Assembly: GCA_030018905.1 (NCBI GenBank)
Contig: JASEHJ010000004.1
Span: 1 to 38,531, forward strand
Reading direction: 5' to 3'
Origin: a bacterium
GTDB lineage: Bacteria; Sysuimicrobiota; Sysuimicrobiia; Sysuimicrobiales; Humicultoraceae
DNA length: 38,531 nt
The notes beneath the pieces are model-generated. The model made no database searches. It was not told the DNA's origin and saw only the letters and a program-made list of their open reading frames with translations. Positions 28,226 through 33,413 of this stretch are shown here, in pieces. Each line of letters begins with the position of its first letter. Positions within the stretch are counted from its first letter, which is position 1. The position numbers and the translations under genes were made by a program.

Positions 28226-28951
28226 ATGGGACGCCATCCATCACGGCGCCACGCATCACCCGAGGATGTTCCGGTTGGACACCGGATCCGCGAGCGCAGA
28301 CGCGACCTCGGAATGACACAGACACACCTTGCCGGCGAGGTCTACACCAAGAGCTTCATCAGCCAGATGGAAAGCGGGCACGCGGACCCCTCCATGGACA
28401 CCCTGCGCTACCTGGGCCGCAGGCTGGAGATGGGGTTGTCCAGCATGGCCGGCAGCGTTGCCGACCAGCATCTGGCCGCGGTGGAGGGCCTGCTGGCATG
28501 GGCACAAGAGGCGCGGCAGGCCGGCCGCACCGACGCTACGCGCCGCGCGATCGAGATCGGCATCGAGATCGCCACGGCCCCCGCATTGCATCGCCACCTT
28601 GCAGAGGCCTGCCTGCTCCTGGCAGAAGTTGAGATCGAATCAGGGTCCGGCGATCGGGCGGCAGGGGCGCTGGAACGGATTCCAGAGCCATCCGTCCTGG
28701 CCGATCCCCGCGTTGCCATCCGGAAGGGCCTGGCTGAAGGGCTGCTCGCCCTGAGAAAGGATGACATCTCCGAGGCCACCGCGGCGTTCTGCCGTGCGCT
28801 GTACCAATCCCGCAGGTCGGCCCGGTACGGCGACCTGACGGTTCGTGCGCTGGCAGGACTTGGCGAGGCGCTCGCCCGGGCAGGCCACCACCAGCAGGCC
28901 CGGCGCAGGCTTGAAGCCGCCGCGCGAATGGCAGCGCGGTCGCGCAGGTAG
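28226..28951 (+). CDS. XRE-family regulator with TPR-like C-terminal domain
   Basis: This 241-residue protein has an XRE helix-turn-helix at about 18-75 (RIRERRRDLGMTQTHLAGEV, then SFISQMESGHADPSMDTL), followed by a helical region with TPR-like spacing (AEACLLLAEVEIESGSGDRAAGALE; VRALAGLGEALARAGHHQQARRRLE). Its DNA-binding part resembles that of the longer XRE-TPR regulator at 31479-32771. TPR-bearing XRE proteins often sense peptides, but no small secreted peptide gene was found beside this one. GGGGGA precedes the ATG by 7 nt. It converges on the operon at 28961-33037, with 9 nt between stops. Confidence 0.75.
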   Translation: MGRHPSRRHASPEDVPVGHRIRERRRDLGMTQTHLAGEVYTKSFISQMESGHADPSMDTLRYLGRRLEMGLSSMAGSVADQHLAAVEGLLAWAQEARQAGRTDATRRAIEIGIEIATAPALHRHLAEACLLLAEVEIESGSGDRAAGALERIPEPSVLADPRVAIRKGLAEGLLALRKDDISEATAAFCRALYQSRRSARYGDLTVRALAGLGEALARAGHHQQARRRLEAAARMAARSRR

Positions 28952-28960
28952 CGGTTCCGG

Positions 28961-29494
28961 CTACGTTTCTCCCGCCGCCAGACTCCGGACCGTGGCGTCG
29001 GCCATGCGGGCAGCTTCGTATCCGGACAGACGCAACTGGCGGGCGGTCTCGACGGCCAGCACATAGATCTGCGCCATCTGGCCCGAGCTGATCTCGGGCG
29101 GCGCGTCCGGTTCCAACCGCTCCTCCTCCGGTCCTCCCTGCGCTCCCCGCTCACCGGTCCGGTCCGCGGACCGCAACCTCGCCAGCCACCGCTTGACGAA
29201 CGCGCTGATCGCGCCCGCCGCTTCCTGTCTGAGCGTCTTCTTGATCTCGTTCAGTATGAATGCCACGACCTCGCTGGCTACGGCCAGCGCTACCGGGGCC
29301 ACCACCGCGGCCGCCCCGGCTGAATCGAACCCGCGCAGCGCAGCCTCGCGGGTCCGATCTTCAAGGGAGCCTCCGGTTTTGTCGAAGAACGCCTCCTGAC
29401 AGGCAGAAAACCCAGGTAACTCCTCGGGTGCCAGGACCTCCACCACGCTCCGCGCCAGATCAGCCACCATGTCCCGCTGTTCTTGATCGCTCAT
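28961..29494 (-). CDS. Unknown protein with one hydrophobic segment, last gene of the patatin-amidase operon
   Basis: I do not recognise this 177-residue protein. It has an acidic N-terminal part, a hydrophobic stretch at about 60-81 (AAAVVAPVALAVASEVVAFIL) that could be a membrane segment, a basic amphipathic stretch (about 85-110), an acidic linker (about 111-135) and a final helical part. The ATG at 29494 overlaps the amidase stop as ATGA, so it is translationally coupled to it. Position suggests a partner of the amidase or lipase, for example a membrane anchor or permeabilising protein, but nothing proves it. Confidence 0.6.
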   Translation of the reverse strand: MSDQEQRDMVADLARSVVEVLAPEELPGFSACQEAFFDKTGGSLEDRTREAALRGFDSAGAAAVVAPVALAVASEVVAFILNEIKKTLRQEAAGAISAFVKRWLARLRSADRTGERGAQGGPEEERLEPDAPPEISSGQMAQIYVLAVETARQLRLSGYEAARMADATVRSLAAGET

Positions 29495-30348
29495 CGCGAC
29501 CCCCTTTCTCCTTTGGATGAGCGCACGCGGACCGTGCGCGTCGCAGCGTCCCAGGCAGGAGCCTGCCATCCCAACATGGCACACAACTCGGAGATCTTCA
29601 CGTAGCCGCGGTCGCCCCGCACGATTGCCGCCAGATCACAATCCCCAGTCCCGGTGCGCAGGGTGGTGGCCCGGCCGCCAATCCGAAGAACGATCCAACC
29701 CAAGAAGTCAGCCAGCGGCCGCAGCGGGCACCACGCCGCCCCGCCTTTGAGCAATCCCTCATCGGAGACCGTGAGGCCATCCACGATTACGCGCACTGGA
29801 AACAGCCGCTCCTTCAAGGCGGCGCCACCCAGGCCTTCCCCAACCATCGCGCGAAAGGCTGCGCCGACTTCAATTGCAGGCCTCTGCGGGTCCCAGGGCA
29901 GCACCATAGGATCCCACTTACCTCCCTGGGGCACGCTGAGCGCGGACTCGACCTCTCCGTGCCCCAGCACGGTCTCAAGAGCCACCGGTATGTGGTACCG
30001 TTCGCAGAGATCGGCTGCCACCACTGCCATCACCTCGTACTGGGCGGCGTTCATTGGGTACCTCCCCGCCCGGAAAGGCCGCTGCATGGCACCGGCCATA
30101 CTGCATGCGGCAATGCCAATGCTTCCCGTGTTCATCATTCGGACGTGCTGGGCGTAGTCGTCACCGGCTGTACTCACGTTGTCCGATATCATGTGGTCGC
30201 CCCGCACTAATCGGCCGTCGGATTCGATCAGAACATGGTAGTGTTCCCGGTCACCGGAACCCGCGTGGTGCACTCCGCCGGTCCAGTGGGTAATGATGCG
30301 CTCCATACGGCAGTCGGGCATCCACGCGTCGGGCACGATTCGCGGCAT
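29491..30348 (-). CDS. N-acetylmuramoyl-L-alanine amidase with copper-amine-oxidase-N-like domain
   Basis: This 285-residue protein begins with an amidase_2 (T7 lysozyme/PGRP-type) domain. Zinc ligands are likely H21 (ITHWTGG), H130 (LGHGEV) and D146 (GKWDP), with Lys144 nearby, and EHYHVLI resembles the family's YH motif. The domain cleaves the bond between MurNAc and the stem peptide. From about 185 to the end the sequence (FPVRVIVDGL, APCPLRPLADFLGW-like, WDAATRTVRVR) resembles the copper amine oxidase N-terminal-like module used for surface binding. There is no signal peptide. The ATG overlaps the patatin stop as TGATG, so the longer frame to 30465 is not the gene. Confidence 0.78.
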   Translation of the reverse strand: MPRIVPDAWMPDCRMERIITHWTGGVHHAGSGDREHYHVLIESDGRLVRGDHMISDNVSTAGDDYAQHVRMMNTGSIGIAACSMAGAMQRPFRAGRYPMNAAQYEVMAVVAADLCERYHIPVALETVLGHGEVESALSVPQGGKWDPMVLPWDPQRPAIEVGAAFRAMVGEGLGGAALKERLFPVRVIVDGLTVSDEGLLKGGAAWCPLRPLADFLGWIVLRIGGRATTLRTGTGDCDLAAIVRGDRGYVKISELCAMLGWQAPAWDAATRTVRVRSSKGERGSR

Positions 30349-31442
30349 CAGGCCTCTTCCCGGGGCTTCGGGGCCCCTGCCCGTCGAATCCGGCCTGCAA
30401 TCTCCCTCCGGCGCGACCGGTCCTTGCCCTGCCGGAACTCGGCGATGTATCCCTCGAAGTCCCAAGATGAAAGGAACCGTTCGGAGGCTGCCCGTCCGGA
30501 CTCGTACAGGGCCACGGCCCGGTGGCGCGGCAGGTGGAACTCCGTGCCCCCGATGCCCAGCGTCGGTATCGGAATCGTGCGTGCGAAGTCGGCGTTCTCG
30601 ACATACAGGCGATCATGAGCCTCCAGCATGGTCTGGACGATGCTCTTGACGTAGTCCACCACAGCGCCGGCCGCACCGCGGGCCGCCCCAGGCCTGGGCA
30701 GGCGTTCGGATACCGGGACCCTCGGGTCGGGCTCTACCAGCAATAGTCCGAAGGTAGGCCATGGGGGCTCACCCTCGGTGTCAAACAGCCAAACCGGGAA
30801 GTTGGAGAGCATCCCGCCGTCCACGATCAAGTGCTCCTGCCCTGTCTGCTGGTTGCGGAACCGCACAGGCTCAAAGAAGATGGGAATGCTCATGCTCATT
30901 CGAGCCGACAGCGCCACATCGAGATCATCTGGGCGCACGCCGAGCCTCTGCGCATCCCGGGGCAGCACCAACAGGCGGCGTTCGGTCAGGTCTGAAACGA
31001 TCACCTGCGCCCTGTAGCGGTACCGGGGCTGATCCGCAAACTCGGGGTGGATCAGATCGGAGAACGTACGCACGCCCTTGGCCTCCAGCAGGCCGCGTAC
31101 AAATGCGAGGAACGTGTCGCCCTCGTAGATCCCCTGGTCCAGCAGGATGCTGAGCGGCGTTCCGAGGAAGGGTATACGGTCTTCCCAGGCGGAATCCAGG
31201 AAGCTGCGGAAGTCGAACTCGAGAATGATCTCGCGCAGTTCCTGGGCAGAGTACCCGGCGGCGTGCAGGACGGCGACCATTGCTCCGGCCGAAGCACCGG
31301 CCACGTTCTGGGGCATGAAGCCGCGCTCCTCGAGGACCGAGAGGGCGCCGACCAGCCCTACCCCTTTGACCCCGCCACCCTCGAAGACGAGGTCCACACG
31401 CTGGCCGCGCGGTGGGCCTATCCCATCCCCCTGCTCGGGCAT
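30348..31442 (-). CDS. Patatin-like phospholipase
   Basis: This 364-residue protein has the patatin Ser-Asp dyad fold: oxyanion loop FEGGGVKG (20-27), nucleophile elbow GASAG with Ser51, and the catalytic Asp208 in DGG. It is expected to hydrolyse fatty acyl chains from membrane lipids. No signal peptide or membrane segment is visible. The ATG at 31442 has GGAGG 8 nt upstream; the GTG at 31451 overlaps that site. It starts 36 nt after the XRE-TPR regulator and overlaps the amidase start, so it is part of the regulator operon. Confidence 0.82.
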   Translation of the reverse strand: MPEQGDGIGPPRGQRVDLVFEGGGVKGVGLVGALSVLEERGFMPQNVAGASAGAMVAVLHAAGYSAQELREIILEFDFRSFLDSAWEDRIPFLGTPLSILLDQGIYEGDTFLAFVRGLLEAKGVRTFSDLIHPEFADQPRYRYRAQVIVSDLTERRLLVLPRDAQRLGVRPDDLDVALSARMSMSIPIFFEPVRFRNQQTGQEHLIVDGGMLSNFPVWLFDTEGEPPWPTFGLLLVEPDPRVPVSERLPRPGAARGAAGAVVDYVKSIVQTMLEAHDRLYVENADFARTIPIPTLGIGGTEFHLPRHRAVALYESGRAASERFLSSWDFEGYIAEFRQGKDRSRRREIAGRIRRAGAPKPREEA

Positions 31443-31478
31443 CGCGCCCACCTCCGAAGCCGGCCGGGTACAGGTGAT

Positions 31479-32771
31479 CTAGCTGGCGGCGAGCGCGGCC
31501 TCCTGGGCGCGAAACGCACGGGCGAAGAGCCGGGCCGCGTGTCCCTCCTCCCCCCGCTCGAGCGCAAGGAAGGCGTAGTCGCGGCTGATCCGAGCGATCT
31601 CGCCGGCCGCCTGGAGACGCTCGAACTGCTCCAGAGCGAAGGCGTACCGGTGAACGGCTTCATCGAGACGGCCCTCACGATGGCAGACCGCGGCCACCAC
31701 CGCCTCGGCGCGCGCCGCCTCCGACGGATCCTGGAGCTTCACGGCCAGACGGATCGCTTCTGCTGCCTGTTCACGCGCTGCCTGGAGATCCCCGCGCAGC
31801 ATCGCGACCCTGGCGAGTTCCGTCAGCGTCTGTGCCCGCCCGGCGTCGTCGGCCAGATGAGTAGCCAGGGTAAAGCTCTGCTGGAGCGCCTCTGTGCCCT
31901 CGCTGAGACGCCCGCGACTCACCAGCAGAATGCCCAGGCTACGCTTGACCGTGCCCAGCAGATGGAGGTTCTCTTGAGCCTCGAAGAGCAGGGCGGCCCT
32001 CGCCAGGTGGTCATGGGCCAGATCAAAGGCCTGCTGCCGCTCATAGGCGACACCGAGGTTGAAGTGGAGCAGTCCCAGCGCGCTCATATCGCCCAGAGGC
32101 TCGAGCCGTTCGAGGGCTCCCTGGTAGCAGTCAAGCGCCTGTGCGGGGAGGCCGAGTTCTGAATAGGTCCGGCCGAGGTTGGCCAGTTGCCTGCCCTCGA
32201 ACTCCGTGTCCACAGGGACGGCCGAGCGAATGGCGCTCAGGGCCCGGGAGAATGCGTCTCGGGCGGCCGGGTAGTCGCGCTGCCGGAGGGAAAGGAACCC
32301 TGTGGCGCTTGCCACGCGCGCGACGAGATCCGGCCGCCCGAGCGCACCCGCAATGGCGCGCCCGCGTTCCAGGTGGTGTTCGGCCAGGTCAAACTGCCTC
32401 AGCCCCGTGAGCGCCTGGCCCAGTCCGATCTGGATGCGGAAGGCAATCTCCAACCCGGGATCCGAAGCCGACGCCCGTTCCGCCTCCTGGAATGCTTCCA
32501 GGGCTTCGGTAAAGCTGTGTTGCCGCACCAGCGATGTGCCTAGTTCCAGCTTCAGGACGACCTTCTTGCGCGGGGGTGGATCGGCGTCAAGCAGGTCTGC
32601 AATCGGCACGTTCAACCGGCCGGCGAGCACACGCAGCGTTTCGAGTGAAGGGCGAACCTTGTCATGCTCGAGCATGCTGATGAAGCTCTCGGAAAGGTCG
32701 CCCGCTGCCAGCCGGCGCTGGGTCATGCCACGGCTCTTACGAGCCTGGCGGACCTTCTCACCAAGCGTCAC
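31479..32771 (-). CDS. XRE-family regulator with about nine TPR repeats (RRNPP-like peptide receptor candidate)
   Basis: This 430-residue protein has an N-terminal XRE helix-turn-helix (about 5-60: VRQARKSRGMTQRRLAAGDL, SFISMLEHDKVRPSLETL) followed by about nine TPR units from residue 70 to the end, each with the usual Leu/Gly/Tyr/Ala pattern (for example LANLGRTYSELGLPAQALDCYQGAL). This layout is that of RRNPP regulators (PlcR, NprR, Rgg, PrgX), whose TPR groove binds a secreted and re-imported peptide. A repeat-bearing secreted peptide gene lies 26 nt upstream on the same strand. It starts at GTG 32771 behind GGAGAG. The receptor role is inference from architecture and neighbourhood. Confidence 0.8.
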   Translation of the reverse strand: MTLGEKVRQARKSRGMTQRRLAAGDLSESFISMLEHDKVRPSLETLRVLAGRLNVPIADLLDADPPPRKKVVLKLELGTSLVRQHSFTEALEAFQEAERASASDPGLEIAFRIQIGLGQALTGLRQFDLAEHHLERGRAIAGALGRPDLVARVASATGFLSLRQRDYPAARDAFSRALSAIRSAVPVDTEFEGRQLANLGRTYSELGLPAQALDCYQGALERLEPLGDMSALGLLHFNLGVAYERQQAFDLAHDHLARAALLFEAQENLHLLGTVKRSLGILLVSRGRLSEGTEALQQSFTLATHLADDAGRAQTLTELARVAMLRGDLQAAREQAAEAIRLAVKLQDPSEAARAEAVVAAVCHREGRLDEAVHRYAFALEQFERLQAAGEIARISRDYAFLALERGEEGHAARLFARAFRAQEAALAAS

Positions 32772-32797
32772 GGTCTTCTCTCCATTCTGCCGTCTGG

Positions 32798-33037
32798 CTA
32801 GCCTGCGCCGATCAACTCACCGTCACCGTGACCGGCCCAGCCGCCGTTCAACAGCTCGCCGTCACCGTGGCCGGCCCAGCCGCCGTTCAACAGCTCGCCG
32901 TCACCGTGGCCGGCCCAGCCGCCGCTCAACAGCTCCCCGTCACCGTGACCGGCAGTGCGCAGCGCAGCGGGTTGTATGGTGACGGTAGCCACCATGACAA
33001 ACGAGATCACGAAGGCAAGGGCGATGATCTTGCGCAT
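32798..33037 (-). CDS. Secreted repeat peptide, candidate pheromone precursor
   Basis: This 79-residue protein has a positively charged start (MRK), a hydrophobic stretch (about 4-20, IIALAFVISFVMVATVT) typical of a signal peptide, and then four copies of AGHGDGEL in tandem units of 13 residues (AGHGDGELLNGGW); the first unit has S for N and the last is cut short as ELIGAG. No cysteine is present, so disulfide or lanthionine peptides are unlikely. AAGGAGG lies 8 nt before the ATG. It is the first gene before the XRE-TPR regulator. Repeated units in an exported precursor recall multicopy pheromone precursors, but no homologous family is recognised. Confidence 0.75.
   Translation of the reverse strand: MRKIIALAFVISFVMVATVTIQPAALRTAGHGDGELLSGGWAGHGDGELLNGGWAGHGDGELLNGGWAGHGDGELIGAG
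32821..32953. repeat. 39-bp tandem repeat inside the peptide gene
   Basis: Three full 39-bp units (32821-32859, 32860-32898, 32899-32937) and a 16-bp partial unit (32938-32953) follow each other without spacers. They differ by only a few single bases. The period keeps the reading frame and encodes the 13-residue peptide unit, so copy number could change by slippage or recombination without frameshift. Confidence 0.92.
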
Positions 33038-33146: not shown

Positions 33147-33178
33147 TGAAGTTCCTCCTGGGAAGCCAGAGAACTTCA
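33147..33178. promoter_or_regulatory. Operator-like inverted repeat upstream of the peptide operon
   Basis: TGAAGTTC (33147-33154) and GAACTTCA (33171-33178) form a perfect 8-bp inverted repeat with a 16-nt spacer. A third copy of the half-site, TGAAGTT, is at 33210-33216. The site lies 110-141 nt upstream of the peptide ATG and is a candidate binding site for the XRE-TPR regulator. Confidence 0.45.
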
Positions 33179-33292
33179 CCTGGATTGAACCACCCTGCCC
33201 CCTGGGTACTGAAGTTGGCGCATCTAGGCAGGCCTGCGGTCTGCGGGGGAGGATTCCCGGCTTCGGATGGCTGAAGGAGGAGCCGAAGGTTC

Positions 33293-33382: not shown

Positions 33383-33413
33383 GAGAGCCCGCGGTGTCCA
33401 ACCGCGGGCTCTC
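33383..33413. terminator. Hairpin terminator candidate after the FAD oxidoreductase gene
   Basis: A perfect 13-bp stem (33383-33395 with 33401-33413) closes a 5-nt loop. It stands about 30 nt beyond the stop of the minus-strand oxidoreductase gene. The sequence after it on the minus strand has only a few T residues, so the uridine tract is weak. Confidence 0.6.

Follow-up and report, generated by a model that had tools for sequence, protein, structure and literature searches.

A candidate RRNPP-type peptide-pheromone switch with a multi-copy precursor in the phylum Sysuimicrobiota

In an uncultured bacterium, two neighbouring minus-strand genes encode a predicted secreted protein of 79 aa and a 430-aa regulator that combines an HTH domain with nine TPRs. 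We propose, with a probability of about 0.8, that these genes constitute an RRNPP-type peptide-pheromone switch controlling its own operon, which comprises the peptide, the receptor, a patatin and an amidase. The proposal is based on the linkage of the two genes among relatives, the receptor-wise diversification of the peptide, the purifying selection acting on its copies, a candidate operator and a predicted Rap-like fold, and it is well supported, at the level of sequence, that the pair works like an RRNPP system. The features of the locus, numbered within the 38,531-nt stretch of DNA that was analysed (the window), are as follows.

29491..30348, minus strand: gene for an N-acetylmuramoyl-L-alanine amidase (Amidase_2), overlapped by the 3' end of the patatin gene; kept in G001 and G003
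30348..31451, minus strand: patatin-like phospholipase gene, 27 nt past the receptor; kept in the genus
31479..32771, minus strand: receptor/regulator gene, GTG start, XRE HTH and nine TPRs
31488..32573, minus strand: superhelix of nine TPRs (residues 67-428), with the groove presumed to bind the peptide
32592..32753, minus strand: HTH_3 DNA-binding domain (residues 7-60), profile match
32772-32797: gap of 26 nt from precursor to receptor, with the peptide gene upstream
32798..33037, minus strand: putative pheromone precursor gene, 79 aa, signal peptide and 4 x GHGDGEL[L/I]
32801..32833, minus strand: copy 4, GHGDGELI-GAG, C-terminal, with a degenerate tail
32834..32872, minus strand: copy 3, GHGDGELL-NGGWA
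32873..32911, minus strand: copy 2, GHGDGELL-NGGWA
32912..32950, minus strand: copy 1, GHGDGELL-SGGWA
32951..33037, minus strand: predicted signal peptide MRKIIALAFVISFVMVATVTIQPAALRTA, with a charged n-region, a hydrophobic core and Ala at -1 (sequence reading and hydropathy screen)
33147..33178: candidate operator TGAAGTTC-N16-GAACTTCA, a perfect palindrome roughly 110 nt ahead of the start codon (ATG) of the peptide gene
33210..33217, minus strand: third half-site CAACTTCA, kept in the genus
33383..33413: stem-loop with 13-bp arms, between the peptide-receptor unit and the upstream oxidoreductase gene

The initial annotation had described a peptide gene followed after 26 nt by an XRE regulator with about nine TPRs. 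ORF reading reproduces its coordinates exactly, and nine helical hairpins are counted in the AlphaFold2 model of the regulator. The stem-loop at 33383..33413 is likely a terminator; generic sigma-70 promoter and terminator scans of the region returned no match. A second, shorter XRE-TPR gene (28226-28951, plus strand, 241 aa) is located 2.5 kb from the pair and has homologues nearby in G001 and G003; no ORF for a secreted peptide was seen next to it.

The precursor displays the basic n-region and hydrophobic core of a secretion signal according to a hydropathy rule, and it is organised as MRKIIALAFVISFVMVATVTIQPAALRTA followed by GHGDGELLSGGWA, two units of GHGDGELLNGGWA and GHGDGELIGAG. The corresponding gene contains a 39-bp tandem array (TRF score 241, 94% matches), and the number of cores varies within the genus, with four in the window, three in G001, four in G003 and two in G002. 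The boundaries of the mature peptide are suggested by relatives. In single-copy precursors, a signal-peptidase-like site sets the N-terminus in L011 (AFA|GHGGGELL) and the stop codon sets the C-terminus in L015, L017 and L019 (GHGGGELL*). In another clade both ends are bracketed within one precursor (VSA|GDVGPGDS...GDVGPGDS*), and several two-copy precursors carry copy 1 after a signal-peptidase-like site and copy 2 at the stop codon, so that the segment common to both copies brackets the mature peptide. Since the cleavage site and stop codon of the relatives delimit an octapeptide, the mature unit is probably GHGDGELL and not the 13-mer. The Arg at -3 in the window's precursor makes the first cleavage site imperfect and counts against the pheromone reading.

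The copies are under purifying selection, with differences that are mostly synonymous. When units are set by the DNA period, pN/pS amounts to 0.022/0.143 in the window array, 0/0.349 in G003, 0.010/0.249 in G034, 0.032/0.171 in G036 and 0/0.581 in G025, while both full units of G001 are identical; across the first eight codons, pN equals 0 in every array except that of G034. In the two-copy clades, 3-7 synonymous and 0 non-synonymous codon differences separate the copies (9 and 1 in L082), a count that is biased, as these motifs were picked by amino-acid identity, and that was redone on DNA-defined units. The duplicated copies of other clades are set apart from each other and have a core in common at the protein level, not at the DNA level.

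The linkage between regulator and peptide extends through the phylum. A scan of 84,980 genomes yielded nine receptor loci, in records whose labels include Armatimonadetes CSP1-3 and Terrabacteria group ANGP1, and the CSP1-3/ANGP1 candidate phylum is now named Sysuimicrobiota (PMC11604079). Receptor homologues occur in 35 of the 43 genomes of this phylum that were analysed, in about 78 copies, and the upstream DNA of 76 receptors was examined. A blind rule, requiring an ORF of 35-110 aa with a charged n-region and a hydrophobic core at most 500 nt upstream of the receptor, detected a secreted small ORF before 41 of the 76 receptors and before none of 117 controls, which were other ORFs of at least 200 aa from the same loci. 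By manual reading, an upstream peptide ORF accompanies 46 of the 75 testable receptors of the phylum. In the clade of the window's receptor, itself well supported, every one of the 15 testable receptors is paired, and one further receptor is cut by a contig end. The presence of the peptide gene changes 9 times on the receptor tree, versus 23 changes expected with shuffled labels. The co-occurrence in relatives that the initial annotation had named as a check is therefore found. No peptide gene was detectable at 29 of the 75 testable receptors, and the clades without one may be "eavesdroppers" or sensors of something else; no receptor relatives were found in viral contigs. The region ~170-350 nt ahead of the receptor in L087 (G035) holds an ORF with the C-terminus IAGDVGPGGG but no clear signal peptide; it may be a precursor that has been frameshifted or is decaying.

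The RRNPPA signature includes a TPR receptor of 250-500 aa (PMC10075063). The signature was applied here together with an adjacent precursor of 10-100 aa, an intergenic distance of -60 to 400 bp, an N-terminal secretion signal and a mature peptide that is 4-10 aa long, is located close to the C-terminal end and varies between receptor lineages. The window's pair falls within these bounds (430 aa, 79 aa and 26 nt), and the bracketed octapeptide, whose mature form we infer, has diversified with the receptor.

About 20 of the 46 precursors are multi-copy, with 2-5 copies each. GHGDGELL is the core of the genus; G009 has GHGDG three times and family f2 a single GHGGGELL, and the cores of other f1 genera are GRGDMDSF, GRGDVDSF, GSGDIDSY and GPGDADFF. 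Other receptor clades present, twice each, GDVGPGDS, GDTWPGGG, GDTGPGQNG, GDDPPDSD, GDIGPGS, GDSLPGGS, PELPGEN and GQDGPGQ, in addition to GDDNGPGAV[YL]G[LV]PPLVPQ in 2, 3 and 5 copies and GDGGPGGWF in at least two. Peptide similarity correlates with the identity of the TPR domain, measured with the HTH left out (Mantel test, Spearman rho 0.29; permutation maximum 0.14), also among receptor pairs below 60% identity (0.22 versus a permutation maximum of 0.19). Of the 24 peptides from genomes that carry several systems, 19 are closer to the peptide of the nearest foreign receptor than to that of a paralogue in their own genome. The peptide thus appears to track the receptor and not the genome. 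This co-variation, another check named beforehand, constitutes modest evidence, because the common descent of linked genes yields the same correlation. As for the groove residues, N198 and R201 show no variation, and N238 almost none, in the window's own clade only, E318 and R321 being more widely kept; none decisively separates the receptors with a peptide gene from those without.

The regulator matches HTH_3 and TPR_12 (E 7.6e-25 for TPR_12), and its AlphaFold2 model, built from 10 sequences with a mean pLDDT of 92.4, consists of the HTH and nine helix pairs. When compared with the PDB by Foldseek, the highest TM score among the 50 matches listed corresponds to apo RapI (4i1a; 0.70 by query, 0.82 by target), with 357 columns superposed at 3.5 A; these 50 matches also include Rap-Phr complexes and PlcR-PapR-DNA. 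The predicted fold is accordingly described as RapI-like, with the reservation that TPR folds are promiscuous and that the eukaryotic LGN ranks first by E-value, above Rap. As regards common descent with the Bacillota receptors, a profile search of the PDB reached PlcR through the HTH only, and an independent fusion of HTH and TPR is conceivable.

The palindrome at 33147..33178, recognised in an alignment of the upstream regions of the genus, is taken as the receptor's own candidate operator. Allowing up to 2 mismatches, exactly one site is found per genome in 4/4 genus genomes, each upstream of the peptide gene, and judging from this distribution the regulon may be little more than the operon itself. 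AACTTCA half-sites also precede the peptide gene in G004, G006, G009 and G010, in which receptor identity falls to 46-71% and the recognition-helix segment SESF[IV]SM is common to all four; in f2, the half-sites are absent and this segment is different. A separate element, TAAA-N15-[GT]CGATA, is located upstream of the peptide gene in L010, L016, L018 and L020, which belong to one receptor clade; its 4 matches in 650 kb of loci all lie before a peptide gene. A sigma-28 reading of this element (as TAAA-N15-NCGATA) was rejected, FliA above the curated cut-off being missing from those genomes, and it may be read by a different sigma factor.

No target gene is conserved beside all pairs, and the neighbours vary by clade. 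A different patatin gene (PF01734 and DUF3376) is found 68 nt past the receptor in G009, and two distinct patatin-family genes (window 30348-31451 and L113:7090-9540) hold the equal position after the receptor in two genera; it is suggested that phospholipase activity, rather than one gene, is tied to the switch. As the operon carries a phospholipase and an amidase, envelope remodelling or lysis can be guessed from these families to be its outcome in the window's lineage. Elsewhere, a small GerE/LuxR-type regulator gene, assigned from sequence and confirmed by Pfam for L019, overlaps or abuts the receptor end in L014, L018 and L019 (L141:17041-17418). In three f2 genomes (L139, L140 and L141, from G020, G029 and G017, respectively), fliA is located ~12 kb from the GHGGGELL receptor, and G017 has an FlgN-like gene between the two and an adjoining rpoN. 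The proximity of fliA in f2 hints at a link to motility.

According to the mechanism that we favour, the precursor would be exported by Sec and then processed by signal peptidase I, together with other proteases, to release copies of GHGDGELL. The octapeptide would then re-enter the cytoplasm via one of many oligopeptide ABC importers and bind in the groove formed by the nine TPRs of the neighbouring XRE regulator, which, once bound, would act differently at the palindromic operator upstream of its own operon; the repeated copies would serve to raise the signal yield per transcript. We infer export, cleavage sites, re-import, binding, the sign of regulation and the density-sensing role. The genome encodes two signal peptidases I and yields 34 matches over the cut-off to the oligopeptide-binding SBP_bac_5 family, a few of which are contig-end fragments; none of these 34 genes is linked to the pair. 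It also encodes an Omp85 protein resembling BamA, in which a long N-terminal part precedes the barrel, so the host most likely has an outer membrane and is diderm. Sec export alone leaves the peptide in the periplasm, and intercellular signalling therefore needs an additional step. Quorum sensing between cells is plausible, provided that the outer membrane is accounted for.

The outer membrane to which Omp85/BamA points is also the basis of a different proposal, in which a peptide matured in the periplasm is re-imported by the same cell and the receptor monitors the state of secretion, proteases or the envelope, or the leakiness of the outer membrane, and not population density. Near the pair, no dedicated exporter for the outer membrane was seen, and the patatin and amidase of the operon belong to envelope-acting enzyme families, both in agreement with an autocrine sensor of this kind. 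Nevertheless, the joint diversification of peptide and receptor, with paralogue-specific peptides within one genome, is what inter-strain signalling predicts, and a wide porin could let the octapeptide through. We hold such a sensor to be possible, although on the unlikely side.

Less likely still, the peptide might be a secreted antimicrobial, toxin or structural repeat whose expression is controlled by the XRE-TPR regulator without any binding. Multi-copy Gly-rich peptides can be of that type, and a patatin and an amidase are present in the operon, but the cores are just 7-9 aa long, very polar, acidic and non-amphipathic, a nearby immunity or modification gene is not conserved, and the pair stays while its neighbours vary. 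Moreover, peptide variation follows the TPR portion of the receptor, the HTH being excluded from the distances. A minisatellite expansion in a leader ORF, with regulation via DNA or RNA and no functional peptide, would account for the shift from 2 to 4 copies within the genus, as by replication slippage. It is refuted in the main and retains hardly any probability, as the differences between copies are almost only synonymous, single-copy relatives retain the near-identical core GHGGGELL, and the separated copies of other clades are alike in protein core, not in DNA.

Among the known systems, PlcR/PapR of the B. cereus group resembles the window's pair in its XRE HTH-TPR regulator, palindromic box, heptapeptide signal and self-regulation. 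PlcR has, however, five TPRs (PMC12700828), PapR is encoded downstream, and the sequence match to the window's receptor is limited to the HTH. NprR/NprX of the Bacillales has in common with the pair the HTH with nine TPRs and an adjacent Sec-exported precursor, and large NprX-type precursors are multi-copy (17/17 of the large ones; PMC9765709), like that of the window. NprR is nevertheless a Bacillota family with monoderm hosts, whereas here we find another phylum, an outer membrane, an upstream peptide gene and Gly/Asp-rich octapeptides. Rap/Phr of B. subtilis and phages has the same nine-TPR fold and provides experimentally shown tandem pheromones in one precursor (PMC11343458), but Rap lacks an HTH and acts on other regulator proteins, unlike the window's receptor with its HTH and DNA palindrome. 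In AloR/AloP of Paenibacillus, many diversified peptide-receptor pairs likewise coexist in one lineage (PMC7425212), with the differences of a downstream peptide, degenerate TPRs and a Bacillota host.

The literature places RRNPPA systems in Bacillota and in the mobile elements of these bacteria (PMC10075063, PMC9765709, PMC12700828), and two of these surveys covered Bacillota only (PMC10075063, PMC12700828). The host phylum studied here lies outside that range, which bears on the distribution of such systems and not on their mechanism. A search of a library of open-access journal articles returned no report of such systems in Sysuimicrobiota or of RRNPP in diderms. The initial annotation had called the locus a distinct variant on account of its repeats and its upstream peptide gene. 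The RRNPP-type pair is upheld by the evidence above; those two grounds are not, since precursors with up to six pheromone copies, and peptide genes placed upstream as well as downstream of the receptor gene, are known in Bacillota (PMC9765709), and multi-copy precursors are known to mature into several pheromones (PMC11343458). New, and not apparent from the window alone, are the host phylum, its apparently two-membraned envelope and the size of the family; the proportion of precursors with several copies and the richness of the peptides in Gly and Asp are new as well.

On balance, we lean slightly towards a large cytoplasmic pheromone family in a two-membraned phylum distant from Bacillota, arising either as an outgroup to every known RRNPPA receptor or by independent joining of HTH and nine TPRs, with a signal that crosses or exploits the outer membrane. 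If true, direct intracellular peptide sensing would reach, with a family of dozens of pairs, a remote phylum whose cells have an outer membrane. A structural phylogeny published in 2025 calls for an outgroup to settle whether the receptors descend from a five-TPR or a nine-TPR ancestor (PMC12700828), and the Sysuimicrobiota receptors could serve as such. Because exact duplicate peptides predict the mature signals unusually firmly, synthetic octapeptides are ready for testing, and they might aid the cultivation of a phylum known almost only from metagenomes.
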